Positions 8,984 through 34,002 of a DNA stretch of 38,583 bases are shown here, one piece after another; position 1 is the first letter of the stretch; the number at the start of each line of letters is the position of its first letter. The stretch lies in the NCBI GenBank assembly GCA_900314765.1, contig OMWN01000073.1, positions 1 through 38,583 on the forward strand, in the 5' to 3' direction. The translations under genes were made by a program, and so were the position numbers. This stretch comes from an uncultured Selenomonadales bacterium (GTDB lineage: Bacteria; Bacillota; Negativicutes; Selenomonadales; Selenomonadaceae). The notes beneath the pieces were generated by a model. That model was not told the origin of the DNA, made no database searches, and saw nothing but the letters and a program-made list of their open reading frames with translations.

Positions 8984-11900
8984 TTATGCTCGCTTGCCAA
9001 ATCTCTTCTCCACGAGCTCCTGCAGCTTTCCTTCCTTCACGTACGGCATGACATCCTCGTTGACGAAATTGTCGTGCGATATGCGTGCCGCCTTTTTGTC
9101 AAATCCGAAGATGTACGCCATCGCGATGTCGTAGATGATGCTGCTCGGCGCAAATCCGTAGACCTGATGCTCGAGGATATGCTTCAGCCGCGCCTCGCCG
9201 TCGGGGTACGCGCGCTTCATACCCTTGCTCTTGTAGAGGCGCTTCACGATCTCCGTGATGTAGAGCCCCGACTTCATATAAAAATCGACAAACGTCCGCT
9301 CTGGGTCGTTGAAAATGCCGGGGTTCTCACGCTCGAGCGCATCGACCATGTCACGGACGACGCTCTTCGGCGTGAATATCTGATTCGTCTGCTGCGGTGG
9401 GATATAGTCGAAAATATCTTCATCCTTCGCCTCATCGAAATAATCCGCGAGCTTTTCCTTGCGGTCGAGAAATTCCTTTATTGCCTCATCGAATACTACC
9501 TCATTAAAAACATGACCCTCGTAATGCTTTTTCTCGCCCGTCTCCTTATCTACGTAGTCGCAGCCATCGCGGAACTTTCGGAACGTTTCCTCCGTGATGC
9601 TCGTGACCTCGAGGAACACATCATCCGGCGTGTAGTCGTCGAAATTGCTGAGCCGCAAATCCGCGCCGCCGCCGTGCGCCATCTCGCTGTACGCCATGAT
9701 GAAGCTCGGTATCGTGCGCGCAAATCCCCGTAGATGCGCGCGCATGTCGTCCTCGACGCCCTTCTTCTTCTCGTTCTCCCTGCGCTTCTCGAGCTCTGCC
9801 GTGACCTTCTGCGTGATTTCCTCCGTCTTCTTCTCCACCGTCGCCTTGAGGTCCTTCGTATATTCATCCGTCAGATGCTTCAGCTTCTTGTCGAAATCAT
9901 TATTAATCTTCTTCGTTTCCTTCTCGCTCTTTGCCTCCTTCAGCTGCTCCTCATGCTCCACCATCGCAATCTTCTGCTGCTTTGCGTGCTCATCGGCCAG
10001 CCGCTCGAGGTCCGCGCTCATTTCCCTCTGCGCGCTCTTCTTCAGCTGCTCCGTCCGCGCATTCGTCAGATTATACTCATCCTTCGCCTTCGTCTCTATC
10101 TTCGGCGCGAGCTCAGCCGCCGCAGCCTCCGCCACCTTCTGTGCGAGGTCGCGCGTCTTCGCCGTCACCTCCGCGGGCGTGTCGTAGCGCATCGGCTTCC
10201 CGTCGTCGGGCAGCGAGCTGTCAATCACATCCGCGACCGCCGCGCCCACATCTTCATATATCTTCTCGCCGAACAAATCCCGCGTCTTGCTGATGACGAT
10301 CTCGCCCGGTATCTCCACATCGCCATGCTCATCGACGCTCACATCGTCCGCATGCGCCATCTCGCCATTCGTGCGCGCGCCGCCCTCATCCGCAGGCGTT
10401 ATCTTCTCCAGCATCTCACGTAGCTCCGGCGGCGCCGAGAAAATATTCCCGATATTCTGGAACAGGAAATTGCTCATAAATCCGCGATGAACCACCTCGC
10501 GCGCCATGATCGAGCGCGGTATCGTCATCACCTTCTCCGCGTCGAGCTCCACCATGCGCCCCTCGTCATCCTCAGAAATGACTGGGTAAAAGTTCAGTAG
10601 CCGTCTGATGCGCTCCTCCCGCTCCGCCGACGTGCCGCCGCCGTTCGCCGTGTCCGTGTTGAGATTATTCGCGAACTCATCATAAATAATGAGCGTCCGC
10701 TCCGGTGCGAAATCAAACACATACGCATTCTCCTTCGCGAATAGCTTCCCGCCCTCCTCATACGCGTACGGATTCTGCGCGCGGAAAGCCGCCTGCATGT
10801 ACTCCGCTGGGCTCTTCATATTCGACAGCATCAGCACCGCCGTCCACGGCTTCACCGTCACGCCCGTCGTCAGCTGCCCGACAGACAGCGTTATCGTCCG
10901 CTCGTGCTCCTTTATCGCGCGCATCACCTTGTCATAGCTTCGCTGATTGGCCGTGTCGTCGTCCTCGTCCGTTCTGCCGTCGCCCGCCGCGACCACCACC
11001 TCATACTCGCCGAATACCGGGTGCTCCCGTAGCATCCGCGCCATCGCCTTCGCACTGTCCACGCGGCTCAGCAGCCAAAACGTATGCTTCAGCTCATGCC
11101 GTAGCTCCGGCGTGCTGAAAGGGAACTTCTCATTCGTCGTCAGCGCGTCGAGAAACTTCCGCACATCAGCCTCATGCACGAACCGCCCCTTGCTGTCCGT
11201 GCTGAAAAACTCATTCAAATCAAAAGCATACTCCGCATGCTCCCCCTCCGAGAGATCGAGCCCCTTTCTGACCTTGCCCTCTATCATGCTCGACAGCTGA
11301 TACGTGAACATATTGAGCCGCGGCAGGCGCGCGTACGGATTCGTCCCCGCGTCATCGTCCCAATTCGCCTTCGCCTCCTGCTCATCCTCGTACGACCAAT
11401 TAAAAATCTGCTCGCTCGAAAACTTATTCGACGCAATCGCCTTGAACGGCGTCCCCGACAAATGAAGCGTGAATCGCCTCTCTATGCTCCTAAATGCGCT
11501 GTCCGTCTTCATCGTGTCGACGCCCTCATGCGCCTCATCGATGACGAGCAGGTCCCACTTCGTATCCTTTATCCATTTCAGCTTATTGAAATCCCCGCCG
11601 AAATACACAGACCCCTTGAGCCCCTGCAGACTCTCGAAAGCAATCTGTCCCGCCGTCTCCGTCTCATCGTCGCTGAGGTCCTCGATGCTCTTGAGATAAT
11701 CATCGCGCGACATCACAGGCTGACCCCGAAGCGCGTCCGTCTCGCTCACGAACTTGTACCCCGTCTGCCAGCCAATGAACCGCGCGTAGTCCTGATACCA
11801 CGAATTCGCGATGCTCGGGCGGTTCGTTACGATGAGCACCTTCACCGCGCCCATCCGCCGCACGAGGTCATACGTCGAGAGCGTCTTGCCAAATCGCGGC

Positions 11901-12397
11901 TTCGCGTTCCAGAGAAATGAGCGGGCACCGTCGTCCATATCGTCAGCGTGGCGCTTGAAATAATCCGCCGTCATATCCACCGCGCGCCGCTGCTCCTCGC
12001 GCAACACATACTGCGAATGCTCCGCCTCATCGCCCTCGGCTGCATAGTCGCGGTCGCGAAAATCCCTGAAATACGCCTTTGACCGCGCGCCGTCTATATG
12101 AAACCACTCCGTCCCCGGCTTTCGCTCCACGCCCCTGTGCGTCGTCATATAGTCGTGGAAATCGTGATCCGTGAAATACTCGCCCGATCCGTCGGAGTAG
12201 CGCGCCTCATACTTCCACTCGATATGATATTCGACGTCAGCCGTGTGCGTCTGTTGCTCGATGCGGTCCTTCACCGTCTGCTTCTCCGTGTAGCCAATCT
12301 TCGTCCAGCCGTCATGCGCCGCCACCTGCGGCGTCGTATACGCGTAAATCATCGGGACGATGTGCGAAAATGGAGCAATCTGCGTGTAGTCAGCCAT
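8984..12397 (-). CDS. Restriction-type helicase with GIY-YIG-like N-terminus and degenerate methyltransferase C-terminus
   Basis: This 1137-residue multidomain protein is the likely DNA translocase/cleavage subunit. Residues 17-101 resemble the T5orf172/GIY-YIG nuclease fold: YAYTTP, then WTKIGYTEKQTVKDRIEQQ, then RGVERKPGTEWFHID. An SF2 helicase follows, with Walker A NAKPRFGKT at 164-172, DEAH at 287-290, SGTP at 314-317, TTGVTV (motif V) and QAAFRAQNP (motif VI). A long charged coiled coil occupies about 790-905. The C-terminus resembles the first half of a gamma-class N6-methyltransferase: QIFTPKSVV (motif X) near 1006, VDFYMKSGLY in the motif I position near 1039, and VYGFAPSSIIYDIA. It stops before any NPPY motif. 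The start is one base after the gene 2 stop. The order nuclease-helicase-coupler-methyltransferase resembles Type ISP enzymes cut short. Helicase assignment is firm; nuclease activity is inference. Confidence 0.87.
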   Translation of the reverse strand: MADYTQIAPFSHIVPMIYAYTTPQVAAHDGWTKIGYTEKQTVKDRIEQQTHTADVEYHIEWKYEARYSDGSGEYFTDHDFHDYMTTHRGVERKPGTEWFHIDGARSKAYFRDFRDRDYAAEGDEAEHSQYVLREEQRRAVDMTADYFKRHADDMDDGARSFLWNAKPRFGKTLSTYDLVRRMGAVKVLIVTNRPSIANSWYQDYARFIGWQTGYKFVSETDALRGQPVMSRDDYLKSIEDLSDDETETAGQIAFESLQGLKGSVYFGGDFNKLKWIKDTKWDLLVIDEAHEGVDTMKTDSAFRSIERRFTLHLSGTPFKAIASNKFSSEQIFNWSYEDEQEAKANWDDDAGTNPYARLPRLNMFTYQLSSMIEGKVRKGLDLSEGEHAEYAFDLNEFFSTDSKGRFVHEADVRKFLDALTTNEKFPFSTPELRHELKHTFWLLSRVDSAKAMARMLREHPVFGEYEVVVAAGDGRTDEDDDTANQRSYDKVMRAIKEHERTITLSVGQLTTGVTVKPWTAVLMLSNMKSPAEYMQAAFRAQNPYAYEEGGKLFAKENAYVFDFAPERTLIIYDEFANNLNTDTANGGGTSAEREERIRRLLNFYPVISEDDEGRMVELDAEKVMTIPRSIMAREVVHRGFMSNFLFQNIGNIFSAPPELREMLEKITPADEGGARTNGEMAHADDVSVDEHGDVEIPGEIVISKTRDLFGEKIYEDVGAAVADVIDSSLPDDGKPMRYDTPAEVTAKTRDLAQKVAEAAAAELAPKIETKAKDEYNLTNARTEQLKKSAQREMSADLERLADEHAKQQKIAMVEHEEQLKEAKSEKETKKINNDFDKKLKHLTDEYTKDLKATVEKKTEEITQKVTAELEKRRENEKKKGVEDDMRAHLRGFARTIPSFIMAYSEMAHGGGADLRLSNFDDYTPDDVFLEVTSITEETFRKFRDGCDYVDKETGEKKHYEGHVFNEVVFDEAIKEFLDRKEKLADYFDEAKDEDIFDYIPPQQTNQIFTPKSVVRDMVDALERENPGIFNDPERTFVDFYMKSGLYITEIVKRLYKSKGMKRAYPDGEARLKHILEHQVYGFAPSSIIYDIAMAYIFGFDKKAARISHDNFVNEDVMPYVKEGKLQELVEKRFGKRA

Positions 12398-12398
12398 C

Positions 12399-13463
12399 TC
12401 AGTCCATCTCCTTCACATGCGTCTCGATGAAATCAATCTCCTTGTCGTCAAGCCCGTATTTTTTATACAGCTGCAAATCAATCTCATGAACAGACTTCGA
12501 CCAATCAATATCAGAATCAGAAGTGAAATCTTGCAGGGGAACTTTATCCCATGTATCACGAGAATTAATCTGTGTTACTTTTAATGCGCCAAGCAATACT
12601 CTAGCAAATTTTCCTTTGATATATTTCAGCAATGCCTGAGCTTCATTCTCGGCTTCAACAGGACCGACGACGATAAATGTGTCTGTCGCAATATCAAAAG
12701 GCTCGCCAATCTCTGGCTTGCTAATCAGTCTGGCTGGCTTTTCTCCAAGCATTCCGGAGGCTCCGTTCGCCTTCGGTAAAAATACTTTCCACTTACCAAT
12801 AAAGTTATCTTCACGCCCACGAACGTATTTTCGAAGAATCCATCGATGGACTCGTTCGTTTCCGTAGCGTCCCAATGCACGAACATAATCATTTTTGTTA
12901 ACGGGTTCATTTTCAAAGAAAATATCCGTTAATGAAGTAAATGCATTCGACGATATATCGTTTTGGTGTCCCTTGCTCAATTTTTCTTTTGCATCCGTGT
13001 GCTCAGCGTGTAATTGGTTTGTAAACAAATACGGTGTGCGTCCGGAGATTATCGAGCTAATAGCAGAAAAGTTTTTGTGTTGCTTCACTTTGTCGCAAAT
13101 ATCTCTGAGTTCATTCCAAGCTATAAACGTATTTATCGGTCCATAATTTTTTTCGCTGTTTCTACAAGTAACTGCGACGCCACCTGTAAACGTTATATTG
13201 GGGAACACTTTTGCCGCGTCAGGTTCATACATTATTACTTTCATATGTTCATCTGAAAGCATTTTTTTATTCCATTGCTTTGGTGTACCACCACCATTAA
13301 ACAAAAAACGAGCAGGGGTGATAAGTTCTACAATGTTGCCAACTTCATAGGCGGCATCCATAAAGAGATGATAAATCGGCTTGTCGCTAGTGCTTTGCCC
13401 CGGCGCCTCATCTTGATACGGCGGATTTCCGATTACCACATCAAACTTGAACTTCTTTCCCAT
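12399..13463 (-). CDS. Adenine methyltransferase catalytic half with specificity region (NPPY subunit)
   Basis: This protein has 354 residues from the ATG at 13463. It opens with FKFDVVIGNPPYQDE, the motif IV (NPPY, residues 13-16) of Eco57I-like N6-adenine methyltransferases. Later methyltransferase motifs follow (VELITPARFLFNGGG, IMYEPDAAKVFPN, TGGVAVTCR). A target-recognition-type C-terminal half (about 150-354) includes RALGRYGNERVHRWILRKYV and FIVVGPVEAENEAQALL. It has no motif X or I, so it cannot bind SAM alone. ATG 13463 is preferred over GTG 13472: GAGGAG lies 11 bases before the ATG but only 2 before the GTG, and the ATG is 2 bases after the gene 1 stop. The coding DNA is clearly more AT-rich than either neighbour, suggesting replacement of the specificity module. 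Confidence 0.85.
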   Translation of the reverse strand: MGKKFKFDVVIGNPPYQDEAPGQSTSDKPIYHLFMDAAYEVGNIVELITPARFLFNGGGTPKQWNKKMLSDEHMKVIMYEPDAAKVFPNITFTGGVAVTCRNSEKNYGPINTFIAWNELRDICDKVKQHKNFSAISSIISGRTPYLFTNQLHAEHTDAKEKLSKGHQNDISSNAFTSLTDIFFENEPVNKNDYVRALGRYGNERVHRWILRKYVRGREDNFIGKWKVFLPKANGASGMLGEKPARLISKPEIGEPFDIATDTFIVVGPVEAENEAQALLKYIKGKFARVLLGALKVTQINSRDTWDKVPLQDFTSDSDIDWSKSVHEIDLQLYKKYGLDDKEIDFIETHVKEMD

Positions 13464-13465
13464 CG

Positions 13466-14296
13466 TCAGCACAGCTCCTCTCTGTACACCTGCATGATGT
13501 CAACTTCCTTGTACTGCCTTCTGCGCGGTCTGTCGGCGGGCGGCTCCTTTGCGATGAGCTCGCCGTTCCTGTCATAGTCCGTGAAAAGATTGAACTCCCG
13601 CGACGGCGGCTCCACCACATACTCCTCATCAAAAAGATTGCCCTCGCGCTCATCATCGAAAAGCGTCTCATAGCGAAACACCACGCGCTCGACCTTCCTT
13701 TTGCGGCGCGCGCTCTGCCGCCACTCGCTGAGCTCTATCGGGCGGCCATCGCTCGTCGTGTGCGTGAGCGTGTTGCCCTGCACCACATTCGCGCGGATCA
13801 CCGTGCGCGCCGACGCCAGCAGCTCCTCGTCCCGCTCCATGATGTCGCGCCCCGTCTTCTGCGCGTAGTTCCGTATGAATACGTCGCACATATTGCGACG
13901 CGCCGCCACAACATTATCCTCGAGCAGCTCGATGCCGTAGATGCTCATCAGTGCCCAGAGCGTCTGATACTTCCAGTTCGCCCCGCGCGTGTGCTGCGTG
14001 TCGGCGTTGATATGCTCCAGCTTCTGCCGGAGGATTTCCGTGAGGAAAGCACCCTCGCCCGCGGCGGGCTCGAGGAACGTCGTGTGCACATCGCGCAGCT
14101 TCTCCTGTATCGGAGGATTAGACAGCATCAGCCGCACCATCCACAGCGGCGTGAATACCTCCCCATGCTTCTGCACACGCTCCCGCGACTTTATCAGCCG
14201 CGCCTCCGCCTCCATCTCCTCACGGCTCGCCGCGATGAGCCTCAGCTCACTGTTTACGTGATTCACTTTTTCCTCATTCGTATTAGCTTGCTCCAT
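13466..14296 (-). CDS. Adenine methyltransferase SAM-binding half
   Basis: This is the first gene of the operon, 276 residues from ATG 14296, where CGGAGA stands 5 bases upstream; ATGs at 14335 and 14341 lack a ribosome site. It carries motif X (GEVFTPLWMV, residues 45-54) and motif I (FLEPAAGEGAFL, 74-85). YGIEL near 120 fits motif II, and there is a helical stretch AARRNMCDVFI. A basic/acidic tail follows (ARRKRKVERVVFR, then EREGNLFDEE). No NPPY is present in the expected place. The catalytic motif begins the next gene, which starts immediately after this stop. Genes 1 and 2 together therefore contain the parts of one gamma-class N6-adenine DNA methyltransferase. An ancient frameshift split or a genuine two-subunit enzyme are both possible; the ribosome site and coupling favour the latter. 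Confidence 0.82.
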   Translation of the reverse strand: MEQANTNEEKVNHVNSELRLIAASREEMEAEARLIKSRERVQKHGEVFTPLWMVRLMLSNPPIQEKLRDVHTTFLEPAAGEGAFLTEILRQKLEHINADTQHTRGANWKYQTLWALMSIYGIELLEDNVVAARRNMCDVFIRNYAQKTGRDIMERDEELLASARTVIRANVVQGNTLTHTTSDGRPIELSEWRQSARRKRKVERVVFRYETLFDDEREGNLFDEEYVVEPPSREFNLFTDYDRNGELIAKEPPADRPRRRQYKEVDIMQVYREELC

Positions 14297-14417
14297 ATAT
14301 TCTCCGATTAGTTGATGAATGTGCGTCACACTCATTAGCATGACGCCGCTATTACTACTAAAATATTCGCCAACAAAAATAAAAATCCTTCAAAAAATAG
14401 CAAATACGCAAAATAAA

Positions 14418-14443
14418 AAAGGATGCCATCACTGACATCCTTT
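14418..14443. other. Hairpin upstream of the restriction-like operon
   Basis: AAAGGATG pairs with CATCCTTT around a 10-base loop, with A-rich DNA to the left and TTTATT to the right. It could stop transcripts in either direction, but no gene ends nearby. It lies about 120 bases before the first start of the minus-strand operon, so it may be an insulator or a leader structure. Confidence 0.35.
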
Positions 14444-24924: not shown

Positions 24925-27570
24925 TTAAATCCTGTAGAGGAAGACGTTGAGAATGCTCTCCCATACGTCGATGGCACGCTGCTTGTATTTCGGCCAGCCC
25001 TCAAGCTCCATCGAGAACAGCTTCGTGTCGTCCGTGGCGGAGCTGATGATGAGGTGGTCGAACACGCCGTCGTAGACGTCGTCGTTGAGGTTTCGCTGGC
25101 TCCACGCCTCGCCGCGCCAATCGGCGCAGAGCATGAACGCACCGCCAGTCGTGTCGTTGATCGCGAGGTCGCTCACGGCCTCGGCGTCGTCGACCGTCAC
25201 GTTGATTTTGTCGCCGCTCATCGTCACGTGTATGACGTGGTCGGCGCGCCTGTGAAAGCTCTGCACGCTCTCGAATGGCTCGGCGCCGTCGCTGACCTTC
25301 GCCGCGGGCTCGGCCTTGCGCTTTTCCGCGCGGGCCATGTATTCTTTCGCGGCCTCGGGCGATGGGGCATAGCGCGCAAATGCTTGATTTTCCGTGACCT
25401 CGGCGTCGCGGCGCACTTCCTCGACGGACTTTATTTCTTCGCCGAGGATGACGGGGAGCTTTTCGCGGTATAGCTCGCGCGCCGCGCCATTCGCTTTTTC
25501 CTTTATTATGAGCTGATCGTTTATGAGGCTCACGGCCACATAGCGCGACAGGTCATCGTCCGCGCGCATGAATATCGTCTGCGCGCCGAACGCGTTGCCG
25601 AGCATTTCGACGCTGACGCTGATGTCTTTGTAGGCGTCGCTGTCGCTGCCGTTGAGCTTCGCGAGCGCGAGGCTCTCCGGGTCCGTCGTGAGCGTGAGAC
25701 ATTCTTTGTCTATCTCGGCGGCTCCGCTCATGAGCGTCCAGTCGTCCCAGCGGCGCTTGTCGCCTTTTTCAAACGTGATGGGCTGATTGATGTCGTGCTT
25801 TATGCGCATCAATAGATGATTGACAGGCCAATACGGCTGCGGCTGCATGCGCGTGAGGTCGTAGATGCTCGATTCCTCGTTGTTGAATGAGTAGCCTTCG
25901 CGGTTGAAATTCATTGCGAACAGCTCGCGTATCCACTTTTCGTTTATCTCGCTCGTGTCATTCGTGTTGCCGAATTTGCCAGTGTTCGCATGCATGAGCA
26001 CGTGCGCGGACGGCACATAGCCGATGCTCTCGTCGTAGAGGTCGCGCAGACGCTCGTAGTCGTAGTCTAGGCGTGCCTTCATGTGGCGATAGCTCTCGCG
26101 CGGCACGCCGTGCTCGTCGCGCAGATAATCCATGAGGTAGTGGTTGTAGCGGCGGCCGAGGTATGGGCGCACCATCGCAAATCTGAGCGGGTCAATTTCA
26201 CCGATGTAGTTATCGTAACGGTCGAATACGTTTATGTATTCGAGGCGATAGCCGTTCGTGCCCATTTCCCAATAACTAGTGTCAAGGAGCTCGCGCAGTT
26301 CTTTCGGCTGGAGAAATTTCGGGTTGTCCACGCCGAAATTCTCGGGGTACGTCATCATCGTGGCCTTGTAGTTGAGCTGTTCGAGTATCTTCTGCGCAAA
26401 TATGCCCGTGTCGCGGCGGCCATCCTCGAACATCAGATAAAGTGCGCGCTTTGGCAGCGGCTTGCCCTCCGTGTAGTATTTTTCAATATCCTGTTGAGTT
26501 ATCGTAACGTAGCCTTGATTTTTGAGCGCATCAAGATGCTCATATAGTCTGTCGCGGCCAATGAGCGTCGATGTGTCGCCGATGCGGTCCACGCCGAAAT
26601 ACGATATGGCGATGAAGCCCGTGTCAGTCGATGTGGAGGCTGCGTCATCGGGGAATGGCTCATAGTCTGTGAGCGTGAAGAATGCGTTGATGATGATGAA
26701 GACGAGACAACCGAGCACGCAGAACTCGAACAGCGTGCGTATGACTTTGTGGTGCTTCTTTTTGCGTGTGAAATCATCGTCGCCGAGCGCCGCGACTTTT
26801 TCTTGTAAATCTTTCGGGTCTTCGGAGAGCGGTATCTCGCTGTGCGCGTGCTCATCGACTTTCGTGCTCGGCGGTGGCTCGGGATTGAATGCAGACTGTT
26901 CAGCGTCGGTGTTATGCTCAGTCGTTGTGTCCGATTGTTCTTGCTCGGCGTGAGTTTCAGCGGCTGCACTTGTTTGCTCACTCTCGACGTGAGTTTCAGC
27001 GGTTACATCTGATTTTTTATTCTCATCATGATGCTCGGGTTTTTCGCTCGCATCTTTGTCATCGTCGCGCACGGGCGGATTAATAGCCGTGCTTTTTTCT
27101 TCAATGGAAGCGTTTACAACAACGTCATGCTTTATTTCTTCTGCGAGCGGTTTAACGCTGTTGTCAGTTTCCTTAGATTCATTGTCTTGTGTCGCCGTCA
27201 TAGGTGCGTTCTCAGCGGCAGGCTCTTGCGCTTCTGCCGCCGTTTCATTTTCCTGTGCAACGTCCTGCTCTGGGCGTGTTTCCGTCAGTGATGCCTCGAT
27301 TTCGTTGCGTTCTGCGCGCGATTCTTCCAGTGGCGCCTCGACTTCGCCCTGCTCAGCTTGCGCGCTTGCTTCCGCTTCGTCGCTCTTAGCCATGCCAGCC
27401 GCGCGCTCTTTTATTTCGTTTTCTTTCGCGGCGAGCTTCTTTTCTTCTTCTTCGAGCTCTATTTCACGCAGGCGCAGAGCGCGCTCGCGCAGTTCGAGCT
27501 CCTTGAGTTTCAGCGCTTCTTCCTTGGCCTTCACAGCGCTTTCGAGCTTTTCGAGTTCTGTCTCTGTCAT
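24925..27570 (-). CDS. Membrane-anchored polysaccharide-deacetylase-fold protein with coiled coil
   Basis: This is an 881-residue protein. Residues 1-60 are a highly charged coiled coil, about 65-265 a low-complexity Glu/Ala/Thr-rich region, and 279-300 one membrane span (LFEFCVLGCLVFIIINAFF). A NodB/PgaB-like domain follows (RDRLYEHLDALKNQGYVTIT, then LYLMFEDGRRDTGIFAQKIL). The C-terminal part (about 620-881) looks like a beta-sandwich/LamG-type fold. Motif 1 is FEDG, with Glu for the catalytic Asp of FDDG. Where active enzymes have H-[ST]-x-x-H the sequence is GTNGYRLEY, so both zinc His residues appear absent. It may bind or guide polymer rather than deacetylate it. ATG 27570 overlaps the glycosyltransferase stop (TGATG); an in-frame GTG is one codon earlier. 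The cytoplasmic coiled coil may contact the synthase. Confidence 0.78.
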   Translation of the reverse strand: MTETELEKLESAVKAKEEALKLKELELRERALRLREIELEEEEKKLAAKENEIKERAAGMAKSDEAEASAQAEQGEVEAPLEESRAERNEIEASLTETRPEQDVAQENETAAEAQEPAAENAPMTATQDNESKETDNSVKPLAEEIKHDVVVNASIEEKSTAINPPVRDDDKDASEKPEHHDENKKSDVTAETHVESEQTSAAAETHAEQEQSDTTTEHNTDAEQSAFNPEPPPSTKVDEHAHSEIPLSEDPKDLQEKVAALGDDDFTRKKKHHKVIRTLFEFCVLGCLVFIIINAFFTLTDYEPFPDDAASTSTDTGFIAISYFGVDRIGDTSTLIGRDRLYEHLDALKNQGYVTITQQDIEKYYTEGKPLPKRALYLMFEDGRRDTGIFAQKILEQLNYKATMMTYPENFGVDNPKFLQPKELRELLDTSYWEMGTNGYRLEYINVFDRYDNYIGEIDPLRFAMVRPYLGRRYNHYLMDYLRDEHGVPRESYRHMKARLDYDYERLRDLYDESIGYVPSAHVLMHANTGKFGNTNDTSEINEKWIRELFAMNFNREGYSFNNEESSIYDLTRMQPQPYWPVNHLLMRIKHDINQPITFEKGDKRRWDDWTLMSGAAEIDKECLTLTTDPESLALAKLNGSDSDAYKDISVSVEMLGNAFGAQTIFMRADDDLSRYVAVSLINDQLIIKEKANGAARELYREKLPVILGEEIKSVEEVRRDAEVTENQAFARYAPSPEAAKEYMARAEKRKAEPAAKVSDGAEPFESVQSFHRRADHVIHVTMSGDKINVTVDDAEAVSDLAINDTTGGAFMLCADWRGEAWSQRNLNDDVYDGVFDHLIISSATDDTKLFSMELEGWPKYKQRAIDVWESILNVFLYRI

Positions 27571-29462
27571 CACGCGCTCGCCCCCTTGTTAGCTTGGGAT
27601 GCGTTGCGCATTTTCTTTTTTTGCTCTTTTTCGGCGGCTTTCGCCTTCCGCTTTTCCATTTCGGCGATGTCGGCAGGCGTCAACCGCGTGCCCCATGTCG
27701 ATTTCCAGAACGTGAACCAGGCGACAGGCATCTGCCAGAGCAGCACGGCCTCATAGTACAGGCAGAACCATACGCCGTAGAGCCACGTAGTCGAGCGGCG
27801 CATGAAAAGCTGTGCCATGCTCATGAGGAACGACATCAGAAGAATGCCGATAATGAATGTTGTAGGAAATACACGGTGCATTATCGGAACATAAACGAGA
27901 TTATAAAGCACGATGATAGGCGCGGCGATTGGCACGACGAGACCCATGTAGAAGCCGAGCGACATGAACGGCTCCTTTTTCCACATGTAGCCGGCGCCGA
28001 TGATGGACTCGCGGAGCCATGAGCGTTTCCATCGCATCTGCTGGCGCAGGAACATCTTGTACGTGTTCGGCACGATTGTCATGCATATCGCGGAGTCTTG
28101 GTACGTCGTCCTGTTGTGGCGCAAGATGAAATTCGTCATGGAGCGGTCGTCGCCGAACGTGGCCTTCTGCCCGAGGAAACGCTGGTTGAGCCACTGCGGC
28201 GAATATTTCAGCACGAGATCTTTGCGGTAGCAGGAGAGTGGGCCGCTCAGGCACGTCGCGGCGTCGAATACGCCCTCGGCGGCTTTCATGATGCGGAACG
28301 CGATGTAGTAGCGCACGGACTGCATCTTTGTCAGCGTGTTCGTGTACGTGTTGGCGACGTCGGTGCGCCCCGACACGCCGCCCATTTCTTTGTCCTTGAA
28401 TGGTTGGACGATGTTCCTCACGGCAAATGGGTCGAGGAAGCTGTCGGAGTCGACGAACACGAGCAGTTCATGTTTCGCGAGCCTTGCGCCGACGGCCATA
28501 GCGTCGCGCTTGCCCATGTTGCGCGGCTGGCGATAGTACGACAGGCGCTCGGCGACGTGGTACGATTGACCGCCTGCGTCGGCGGCCTTGAGTTTTTCGA
28601 TGATTTCCTTTATTTTTTCGAGCGAGTGGTCATTCGAGCAATCGTCCACGACGATGACCTGCAATTTGTCGACAGGGTAGTCTTGATTCATGCAGCTTCT
28701 GATTGTTCGCTGTATCCAGTTCTCTTCATTAAAACATGGAATAATTATCGTAACACCTGGCGTAAAGTCGGGGTCAATGGGAACGGGGCGATAAAATGTC
28801 GCGAAGACATAGCGCGTCAAAAGGAACGTCGCGGCGATGATGCTGTAGAGGTAGAGCCAACGATTGAATTTGAAATAGATGACGGACTCGGCGCGCATGA
28901 GCACAATGACGAACGTGATAATCGCGAGGAAAAACGCCGCGACGGCGAGCATGTAGCTTTGGCGTTTCTTCTGCACGTACTCAGCGAGCGAGCGGTCGAA
29001 CTGCATGCCGGCACAGACCTCGGCGTCTTTCCCCTCGCCACGATGAAAGAGTCTCACGGAGTGGGCGGGGAGTTTGTCGACGCTCATCTCATAGCCTTCG
29101 GGCATGGAGCCCGCGGTGATCTCGAATTTCAGTATGACTTGCTTTTCTTTGTTCACGGCCTCAGCGTCTGCGGCGTTCTCAAATTTTATGAGCATGCCCG
29201 TCGTCGATATGTCGATGGCTTTCGCCTTCACGCGTTTAGCACCGAACTTCACCGTGACGTCGTAGTCGACAAGGAAACGCTGCCCTTTTTTGTTGTCGGC
29301 CTCGTATGCGGCATAGCTGAATTCAGCGTCGTTTCTCGAGGCTTTTGGGTCAACTGCCATGCGCCTGTCTTGATTTGAGCGGACGCCCGACGCGTCGGGT
29401 ACAAAAGAAAGGAGACGACGATCAGGCTTTTGCTCGTAGAGTATATCTTTGACTTCAGCCAT
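27570..29462 (-). CDS. PilZ-domain fused processive glycosyltransferase (PgaC/BcsA-like)
   Basis: This 630-residue inner-membrane synthase has an N-terminal PilZ-like domain at about 55-150 with QRFLVDYDVTVKF and DISTTGMLIKFE (the D-x-S-x-x-G motif). The usual RxxxR appears as KKGQR, so c-di-GMP binding is possible but uncertain. Two membrane spans follow (MLAVAAFFLAIITFVIVLM; YLYSIIAATFLLTRYVF). The GT2 domain has VTIIIPCFNEENWIQRTI, VVDDCSND, VDSDSFLD, FGDDRSMTN and the processive QQMRWKRSW motif, then three or four C-terminal spans. This is the layout of hyaluronan, PNAG and cellulose synthases. ATG 29462 has AAGGAG 9 bases upstream; a TTG at 29483 would overlap that site. It probably makes and exports a beta-linked polysaccharide under second-messenger control. 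Confidence 0.88.
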   Translation of the reverse strand: MAEVKDILYEQKPDRRLLSFVPDASGVRSNQDRRMAVDPKASRNDAEFSYAAYEADNKKGQRFLVDYDVTVKFGAKRVKAKAIDISTTGMLIKFENAADAEAVNKEKQVILKFEITAGSMPEGYEMSVDKLPAHSVRLFHRGEGKDAEVCAGMQFDRSLAEYVQKKRQSYMLAVAAFFLAIITFVIVLMRAESVIYFKFNRWLYLYSIIAATFLLTRYVFATFYRPVPIDPDFTPGVTIIIPCFNEENWIQRTIRSCMNQDYPVDKLQVIVVDDCSNDHSLEKIKEIIEKLKAADAGGQSYHVAERLSYYRQPRNMGKRDAMAVGARLAKHELLVFVDSDSFLDPFAVRNIVQPFKDKEMGGVSGRTDVANTYTNTLTKMQSVRYYIAFRIMKAAEGVFDAATCLSGPLSCYRKDLVLKYSPQWLNQRFLGQKATFGDDRSMTNFILRHNRTTYQDSAICMTIVPNTYKMFLRQQMRWKRSWLRESIIGAGYMWKKEPFMSLGFYMGLVVPIAAPIIVLYNLVYVPIMHRVFPTTFIIGILLMSFLMSMAQLFMRRSTTWLYGVWFCLYYEAVLLWQMPVAWFTFWKSTWGTRLTPADIAEMEKRKAKAAEKEQKKKMRNASQANKGASA

Positions 29463-32205: not shown

Positions 32206-34002
32206 TTACGGTTCGTGATATGTGCTGAAGAAATACGTGAGCGCGCCCCATATCGTGCTGCTCCGCTTGTCGGTCCAGAGGTCGGTGATGTTGTAGTACT
32301 CGAGACTGAAAACGAGGTCCGGCTTTATCGTGTACTCATAGCCGAGGCCGAAGCCTTTGAATCCGCCGCGTGTCGGCATGCCGTACGGCGTCGCGTCGAA
32401 ATTCATGTAGTCGGCCATGCCGTTCATCGTGTGCTGCACGTACGTCGAGCTCGGCTGGCGGTAGTATTTGAGCCAATACGACGACGAGCCGGGGCGCCAC
32501 GTGTTGTGCATGCCGTGCGCGATGGTCGCGACGAAGCCGTTGCCGCTCTTTGCGGCGCTGTCGTGGCCTCTGAGGAACATGAGTCCGAGGTCGAAATCGC
32601 CGATAGGCTTCCTGTAGTTCAGCATCCATATATTTCTCGATGTGTTGTGGAGCGGGCTGAAATGGAAATAGCCGATGTCGTAGCCGCCGCGCTCGTTGTC
32701 GTACGACGCGACGAGGTTCCAGACGTGGTGGGCGTTGTCGATTTTGCCGAGCTCGAACTGGTAGCGCACGGGACTGCCCGTCCACATTCTGACGCCGCGA
32801 AATGCGGAGTCATATATATTGCCCTCGGCCATCATGGAGCCAAATCGTCCTACGTCCATGCCGACGGCGCCGACATTGCCCTCGAGGTAGTAGCGGTCGA
32901 GAATGACATCCCCGTCATCACTGCCGCCATCGCCGTCTATTGTCTTCGACCACTCGACCATGCCTTTTGCGTGCCAGTTGCCGTCGATGTTGTAGTCCGG
33001 ATAGAGGCGCACGCGAGCCCTCGCGCGGTTGTCGTCTATGCCCTCTTCGCCGTTATGGACGCCGTCGTCGAGGCGCACTTCGCCGTCGAGCTTAAATCTC
33101 GGGTCCATCGACGGCTTTATCGGGAGATTCGTCGCGGCGATGCTGCGCGCGTTCTCGTCATCGAGATAGCCAATGTTTTCGAGCTCCGTGATGTACTCCG
33201 CGCGGAGCCGCGCCGCCGCATCGAGCGACTCGTTGCTCGGGACGTATGTGCTGCTCGTGTCATACTCCGATGTGCCAGACGCGCTCGTCGATGTGCTGCG
33301 CGCGTGCGTGTTGCCGCCGTAGCCGTCATAGCCGCCATAGGCTCTTGCGCCGCCGACCGTCGGGGCGTCGCCCGCTATTTGCGAGAGCAGCATCGCCTGA
33401 TGCTCCTTCAGCCTGTTGAGCATCGCCTCACGGCGAATCACATTCGATTTTGCCTGAGCGTAGTCCCTTGCCGCTTTTTCGAGCGCGGCCATGTCGCTGT
33501 CAGATTTTTTCTTCAGCGGCTCCATGACCTCGAGTCTGTTCTGCCCGTTTATCGATTCGCGCACGAGCGCCTCAGTGCTGCTTTGTGAGCGCCTCTTCGC
33601 GTCCTCGATTTGCTCATTGGCGTAGTCGAGTTGCTGCTTCGCGAATTTCAGCTGCGTCTCGTCCATCGTGATGAGGCATGTGACGCGCGCGTATTCATCG
33701 ACGATGGTTGACGACTTGCTGCTCTCGAGCTGCGGCAGGCCCGACGCTATGAGACGCGCTATTTGGGCTCTGTCGAGCTCATATATGTTGTCGGGGACCG
33801 TGAGATAGCCGTTGGCGGCGAGCTCATCGATGGCGTCGTACGTCCACATCGGCACATCGCCCGACGATGTGGCTGCCGCCGCATGGGCGATAGTTGGCGC
33901 GTAAAATGTGTATGCCGCAACAGGCATAAAAGGCGCAGTGAGGATTGCGGCGGCCATGACGGCACGCCGCTTAAGGCTCGAATGATGAATGTTCATGCTC
34001 AC
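32206..34002 (-). CDS. Outer-membrane SLH-coiled coil-porin-like protein (OmpM-type)
   Basis: This 598-residue exported protein has a signal peptide (KRRAVMAAAILTAPFMPVAA...AHA). A single SLH-like segment follows at about 49-87 (DVPMWTYDAIDELAANGYLT ... ELDRAQIARLI), then a coiled coil at about 100-205, a Gly/Ser/Thr/Tyr-rich linker at 215-255, and a beta-rich region to the end (DGEVRLDDGVHN, RARARVRLYPDYN, YYLEGNVGAVGMDVGRFGSM, LEYYNITDLWT). This matches Negativicutes OmpM-type proteins, where SLH holds the peptidoglycan and the barrel sits in the outer membrane. The barrel starts with the porin-like KLDGEVR. Start is GTG 34002 (AAGGGG 7 bases upstream) or ATG 33996. The barrel ends FFSTYHEP rather than with a terminal aromatic. 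Confidence 0.8.
   Translation of the reverse strand: MSMNIHHSSLKRRAVMAAAILTAPFMPVAAYTFYAPTIAHAAAATSSGDVPMWTYDAIDELAANGYLTVPDNIYELDRAQIARLIASGLPQLESSKSSTIVDEYARVTCLITMDETQLKFAKQQLDYANEQIEDAKRRSQSSTEALVRESINGQNRLEVMEPLKKKSDSDMAALEKAARDYAQAKSNVIRREAMLNRLKEHQAMLLSQIAGDAPTVGGARAYGGYDGYGGNTHARSTSTSASGTSEYDTSSTYVPSNESLDAAARLRAEYITELENIGYLDDENARSIAATNLPIKPSMDPRFKLDGEVRLDDGVHNGEEGIDDNRARARVRLYPDYNIDGNWHAKGMVEWSKTIDGDGGSDDGDVILDRYYLEGNVGAVGMDVGRFGSMMAEGNIYDSAFRGVRMWTGSPVRYQFELGKIDNAHHVWNLVASYDNERGGYDIGYFHFSPLHNTSRNIWMLNYRKPIGDFDLGLMFLRGHDSAAKSGNGFVATIAHGMHNTWRPGSSSYWLKYYRQPSSTYVQHTMNGMADYMNFDATPYGMPTRGGFKGFGLGYEYTIKPDLVFSLEYYNITDLWTDKRSSTIWGALTYFFSTYHEP

Follow-up and report, generated by a model that had tools for sequence, protein, structure and literature searches.

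A three-gene operon lies on the minus strand at positions 8984 to 14296 of the window, the whole 38,583-nucleotide stretch of contig OMWN01000073.1 from an uncultured Selenomonadales bacterium (assembly GCA_900314765.1). The operon is probably, though far from certainly, a restriction-modification system built on one shared half-enzyme, the product of gene 2. In the proposed mechanism, gene 2 (module C), which lacks the S-adenosylmethionine (SAM)-binding half, would contribute the region for target recognition along with the catalytic NPPY loop. With gene 1 (module N1), which has normal SAM motifs, it would form a complete adenine methyltransferase marking the host site. With the C-terminal half of gene 3 (module N3), it would form a methyltransferase-shaped reader with a conserved but altered SAM site. 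This N3-C reader would recognise the same site, leave it unmethylated, and send the superfamily 2 (SF2) motor (module HEL) and GIY-YIG-like nuclease of gene 3 against unmarked DNA. As both complexes would draw their specificity from gene 2, a swap of that gene alone would shift both activities together.

The evidence consists of the gene anatomy, natural fusions, residue changes in N3 and exchange of C, all read from sequence comparison, and of a structural model of a relative, which supports N3 and C forming one fold. From these we infer that in this strain each half binds gene 2, that the mark is N6-methyladenine, that N3-C is unable to methylate and that the nuclease acts on DNA.

Gene anatomy of the operon

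The genes, domains and motifs of the operon were as follows.

13466..14296, minus strand: gene 1 (N1), N-terminal half of a gamma-type adenine methyltransferase (motifs X, I, II and III)
14147..14164, minus strand: gene 1 motif X, GEVFTP
14045..14074, minus strand: gene 1 motif I, LEPAAGEGAF; first Gly invariant in N1 relatives (68/68)
13925..13939, minus strand: gene 1 motif II, YGIEL; acid retained (68/68)
12399..13463, minus strand: gene 2 (C), C-terminal half, motif IV onward and presumed target-recognition region
13416..13427, minus strand: gene 2 motif IV, NPPY; NPP in 71/71 relatives
12759..13151, minus strand: gene 2 variable middle, presumed target recognition domain (from close-pair identities)
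8984..12397, minus strand: gene 3 (HEL-N3), nuclease-translocase with C-terminal pseudo-methyltransferase half
12101..12346, minus strand: gene 3 GIY-YIG-like (T5orf172-type) nuclease domain, residues 18-99
10718..12010, minus strand: gene 3 SF2 translocase core, residues 130-560 (RFGKT, DExH, SGTP, QAAFRxQ)
9758..10165, minus strand: gene 3 charged, probably coiled-coil stretch, residues ~745-880 (from sequence and weak coiled-coil-type matches)
8987..9430, minus strand: gene 3 N3 half, residues ~990-1137
9368..9385, minus strand: N3 motif X, NQIFTP
9260..9289, minus strand: N3 altered motif I, VDFYMKSGLY; Lys for the first Gly of GxG (70/70)
9146..9160, minus strand: N3 altered motif II, YGFAP; Ala for the acid (68/69)

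The longest open reading frame (ORF) of gene 1 spanned 13466-14341 (minus strand); the start at 14296 was preferred because CGGAG lies 7 nt upstream of it. NPPY was absent from gene 1, and inspection of its sequence found no motif past X, I, II and III. Gene 2 most likely starts at an ATG 2 nt past the gene 1 stop, with GAGGAG upstream (a GTG at 13472 is the alternative). Its N-terminus, KFKFDVVIGNPPYQ, lies a few residues ahead of NPPY. The Pfam Eco57I match to gene 2 (2.2e-18) began at profile position 71 of 171; as the match enters mid-profile, the N-terminal half is missing. Genes 1 and 2 jointly gave the Eco57I-type (gamma-class) motif order X-I-II-III-IV-recognition, NPPY included, and natural N1-C fusions had the same order. 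The ORFs, the motifs and the partial Eco57I match thus confirmed the claim of the initial annotation that gene 1 carries motifs X and I without NPPY and that gene 2 runs from NPPY onward. The genes had been described as 1-2 bases apart, and the gaps were indeed 2 nt (genes 1 and 2) and 1 nt (genes 2 and 3), with GAAGGAG preceding the gene 3 start.

The match of T5orf172, a GIY-YIG relative, to the window's gene 3 had an E-value of only 0.02; relatives matched at 1.8e-7 and 1e-5. The GIY-YIG-like residues Y18, K33, G35, T37, R45, H81 and E97 were each conserved in >90% of 87 relatives, as were most SF2 motif residues, and the motor matched ResIII at 2.2e-10. The earlier description of gene 3 as a GIY-YIG-like domain, an SF2 motor, a coiled-coil-like stretch and a motif X/I half without NPPY was upheld. 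A second complete methyltransferase on gene 3 was ruled out by the absence of NPPY.

SAM-binding motifs of N1 and N3

The motif I Gly position was Lys in 70/70 N3 halves (pattern D-x-Y-x-K-S-G; Tyr in 69/70), and the motif II acid position was Ala in 68/69. In ordinary methyltransferases this acid contacts the SAM ribose. N1 halves carried Gly in motif I (68/68) and Glu or Asp in motif II (68/68). More distant N3 halves read DP[AG]CK[ST]GVF, with GIAITEL or AIAITEL as motif II, and a third N3 type read NSKTGLYP followed by V[IC][AC]KTP. As a control, Eco57I-family enzymes from genomes of the same family carried Gly; the regular expression used for motif I gave spurious matches in some enzymes, so the count was limited to enzymes whose motif I was clear. 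In an hhalign comparison, N1 and N3 could still be recognised as related near motifs X and I (probability 76%, E 2.4e-5).

Judged by these residues, the restriction-side N3 is a conserved pseudo-methyltransferase half and not a second working half. The earlier observation of a second half-methyltransferase on gene 3, with its motifs X and I, held, and its character as a pseudo-half refines the earlier interpretation. The Lys-bearing pseudo-half was distributed over Bacillota, Actinomycetota, Pseudomonadota, Bacteroidales, Anaerolineaceae, a Treponema plasmid and phage contigs.

Module arrangements in relatives

Relatives were sampled from 189 genomes of the family, a genome collection, 398 genomes of the phylum, plasmids, phage records and viral contigs, which gave loci L002-L161. 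Profiles were made for HEL, N3, N1 and C, all reading frames were annotated, and arrangements were counted in 91 non-redundant loci. In the notation used here, hyphens join modules of one chain and slashes separate genes.

The most frequent arrangement was N1/HEL-N3/C (19 loci), which places N1 beyond HEL-N3, on the far side from C. It was followed by N1-C/HEL-N3 (17 loci, HEL-N3 without C) and by the window's own type, N1/C/HEL-N3, so that the three-gene order sought in homologues was found in 13 of the 91 loci. N1/HEL-N3-C occurred in eight loci, N1/N3-C/HEL in six, N1/HEL-C with a divergent N3 in three and HEL-N3/N1-C in two. Single HEL-N3-N1-C chains occurred in six loci, two of them cut by contig ends (examples are L084, L109, L111 and L112). 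The remaining loci were a few truncated, broken or duplicated forms. Both N1 and C adjoined the motor in 83/91 loci; all of the other eight except L104 appeared to be cut by contig ends. Among the 189 family genomes, N1 lay within 8 kb on the same strand for 67 of 74 HEL hits, and the seven hits without an adjacent N1 were mostly near contig ends or had their N1 elsewhere in the genome, on a different contig.

Because the same halves recur, split or fused, across the 91 loci, they are not chance products. The four modules were split or fused in various ways, usually with a single C per N1 and N3 pair; C has therefore been joined to each N-terminal half in different lineages. On a tree of 84 motor sequences (built by a quick method, with several long branches and no inferred root) the fusion state shifted at least 13 times, and the well-supported branches alone forced at least seven N1-C changes and at least three N3-C changes. 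Direct N3-C fusion was seen in at least three lineages, one of them without a helicase, and with the motifs in correct order. The C of L038, joined to N1, and that of L116, joined at the N3 position, were 61% identical, while the motors of these two loci were only 41% identical and their N1 halves 32%. The natural fusion of C to either of two N-terminal halves is the strongest sequence evidence that C may pair with both, and together with the usual single C per pair it supports the earlier suggestion that gene 2 is a catalytic and specificity subunit common to genes 1 and 3.

The initial annotation had held that a gene 3 homologue forming a complete methyltransferase by itself would speak against such sharing. 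Relatives of a similar kind, with HEL-N3-C in one chain, do exist; all of them that have enough contig keep N1 as a gene of its own and the changed SAM site in N3, and for that reason they back the shared-subunit idea.

N1-C methyltransferases with no motor or N3 nearby were found at L192-L196, L198 and L200. These solitary complete enzymes were seen in one genus of the window's family, and some genomes had more than one. Solitary N3 or N3-C, or HEL-N3 without N1, was looked for among the HEL hits and none was found, L104 being a doubtful case. The presence of solitary N1-C beside no solitary N3-C fits a role of N1-C as the modifying enzyme.

Some relatives were on mobile elements. On a Bifidobacterium longum plasmid (L118) and on pTEF3 of Enterococcus faecalis V583 (L115) the system was broken up or shortened next to IS256 and IS1216 elements; what is left on pTEF3 had kept N3-C and lost the motor. 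The N1/N3-C/HEL form turned up in a Caudoviricetes genome as well as in viral contigs of IMG/VR (L122, L146-L149), so phages may carry the system.

Exchange of gene 2

Identities were compared in 251 pairs of close systems, some duplicate loci included. Median identity was 72% for the motor, 77% for N3, 77% for N1 and 52% for C. In the middle of C it fell to 35%, against ~77% for the partners. The clearest pair was L033 and L035, with 94% identity in the motor, 99% in N3, 99% in N1 and 29% in C; the DNA identity of this pair falls close to where gene 2 starts and rises again in gene 3. Three further pairs had a similar drop over C. With near-identical partners, a divergent C and boundaries near the gene ends, gene 2 has evidently been swapped alone, a pattern that fits the earlier idea that one exchangeable gene would set both specificities.

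Second copies of C (or N1-C) stood across the motor gene at L107:3829-5241 and 9864-10901 and in L093 and L100, with conserved ends. These copies might serve as a reservoir from which specificity is recombined.

Structure prediction and sequence searches

An AlphaFold2 model of the natural N3-C fusion of L072 had a mean predicted local distance difference test score (pLDDT) of 86.8 and a predicted template modelling score (pTM) of 0.82. Its nearest solved folds were CamA (E 2e-18), PglX/BrxX of the bacteriophage exclusion (BREX) systems (PglX 4e-14) and Type ISP enzymes. The model and these folds suggest that N3 and C would together make one complete methyltransferase-shaped unit.

Among PDB sequences, phmmer searches with genes 2 and 3 and a search with the N3-C profile returned nothing. 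The N1 profile gave weak matches only, to M subunits of Type I systems and to one further adenine methyltransferase.

Alternative explanations

Several points weigh against a shared half-enzyme. The model of the N1-C fusion of L037 was poor (pTM 0.56), probably owing to bad alignment between the few fused rows and the rows of separate N1 and C, and was not used. The pairing of N1 with C therefore rests on sequence order and natural fusion. The loss of SAM binding by N3 is deduced from residues only. Extra C copies, 75-88% identical in conserved repeats, occur in L093, L100 and L107. Finally, C is tethered in HEL-N3-C and HEL-N3-N1-C, so its use by the other N-terminal half would need displacement or pairing between molecules. 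The narrower proposal that the same C polypeptide acts as a methyltransferase with the functional half and as a non-methylating reader with the pseudo-half, the amount of C setting the balance of modification and restriction, is tentative and leans slightly towards doubt.

The tethered forms, such as HEL-N3-N1-C, make it a real possibility that the system is one asymmetric holoenzyme, in which N1-C and N3-C sit side by side, DNA recognition falling to one and methylation to the other, and with restriction and modification as its states. The single chains, and HEL-N3-C with N1, fix the ratio of modules, and free exchange is harder in tethered fusions. Such a division of labour is reported for the two Mod subunits of EcoP15I, recognition lying with one and methylation with its partner (PMC4490356). 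Split operons and the solitary enzymes show N1-C existing without N3, however, and with normally one C per two N-terminal halves the complex would need two C copies. We regard a single holoenzyme as unlikely but credible.

Also quite unlikely is that N3 is a mere docking or regulatory domain, with N1-C alone providing methylation and specificity and HEL-N3 binding it from outside in the manner of Type III Res and Mod. Most loci do have N1-C, fused or split, alongside HEL-N3 without C, and the SAM site of N3 is altered. A docking domain is harder to reconcile with the direct, correctly ordered fusions of N3 to C in at least three lineages, one lacking the helicase, and with the predicted folding of the N3-C fusion as one methyltransferase.

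An active N3-C methyltransferase with an unusual SAM site, with N1 as regulator or helper, could account for the strong conservation of N3, in which many residues were invariant across 20 relatives. It is very improbable, as both key SAM-binding positions are changed in N3 and kept in N1, and as N1-C occurs on its own in some genomes and N3-C was not found in that state.

The initial annotation had also raised a strain-specific frameshift at the gene 1/gene 2 boundary; although fused N1-C relatives are common, such a break in a decaying system has next to no probability and was ruled out, since the same split recurs in distant and unrelated genera (Selenomonadaceae, Lactobacillus relatives and others), N1 lies beyond HEL-N3 from C in 19 loci, and in the window the inner genes start normally, with ribosome-binding sites and all expected motifs intact.

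Comparison with known systems

The proposed shared half-enzyme system resembles Type III systems (EcoP15I, Mod2Res1) in its separate modification and nuclease-motor genes, in one specificity component common to both, and in a possible division of labour between methyltransferase units. In Type III systems, Mod makes up a whole methyltransferase by itself, and Res is not known to bear a methyltransferase half. The motor subunit here instead bears a pseudo-half that seemingly needs C, and the window's methyltransferase is split over genes 1 and 2, a complete Mod-like gene being found only in N1-C relatives. Gene 3 has an SF2 motor (the ResIII match), as Res does, but its nuclease is N-terminal and GIY-YIG-like.

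With Type I systems (HsdR, HsdM, HsdS) it shares a single exchangeable specificity gene for restriction and modification. Whereas HsdS is purely a recognition subunit and HsdM a complete methyltransferase, the fold is divided here: gene 2 has one variable region and also bears the NPPY loop, which gene 1 lacks.

In Type ISP enzymes (LlaBIII, LlaGI), too, a nuclease, an SF2 motor, a gamma-type adenine methyltransferase and a recognition domain act together, and their methyltransferase was matched by the N3-C model. They are single chains with a Mrr-family nuclease and one methyltransferase (PMC4666363). The window's system has three chains instead of one polypeptide, a GIY-YIG-like nuclease instead of the Mrr-family PD-(D/E)XK nuclease of the Type ISP definition (PMC4666363), and two N-terminal halves per C-terminal half, the one attached to the motor lacking NPPY and being altered in motif I. 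Plain Type ISP membership was rejected on these three features: chain number, nuclease family and motor-attached methyltransferase.

Type IIG enzymes combine endonuclease, methyltransferase and recognition in a single chain without an ATP motor, unlike the three chains and conserved ATP-motor motifs found here. The PADLOC model PDLC03626 (Type IIG) matched HEL-N3-C chains (7e-125) and PDLC03375 (Type II methyltransferase) matched C. These models file the pieces as ordinary Type IIG and Type II, and the partner N1 and the altered N3 go unrecorded. BREX PglX/BrxX and CamA, the nearest solved folds to the N3-C model, differ in being single complete methyltransferases, undivided and not fused to a nuclease-motor.

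Other features of the window

One further feature stands directly upstream of the operon.

14418..14443, minus strand: terminator-like hairpin (consensus match only)

It suggests that the operon has its own start. Elsewhere in the window, long minus-strand ORFs at 24925-27573 and 32206-34002 (882 and 598 aa), near a glycosyltransferase, had no Pfam match, and a 5S rRNA gene at 1-87 was cut by the contig start.

Significance

A search of the open-access literature, with subscription papers and REBASE notes outside its scope, found no description of the shared half or of the altered N3 half. Members were already known as database sequences (PADLOC). As database models assign the pieces to Type II and Type IIG as if they had nothing to do with each other, such systems may be counted wrongly, and an N1 gene resembles a damaged methyltransferase. 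A Lys conserved where a SAM-contacting Gly would stand is a simple search signature for a widespread pseudo-methyltransferase half. The recombined C genes are cases in which specificity was exchanged naturally in one step, which is useful for engineering. Restriction-modification must keep the cut and protected sites identical when specificity changes, and a single gene completing both enzymes would keep them matched within the methyltransferase fold itself.
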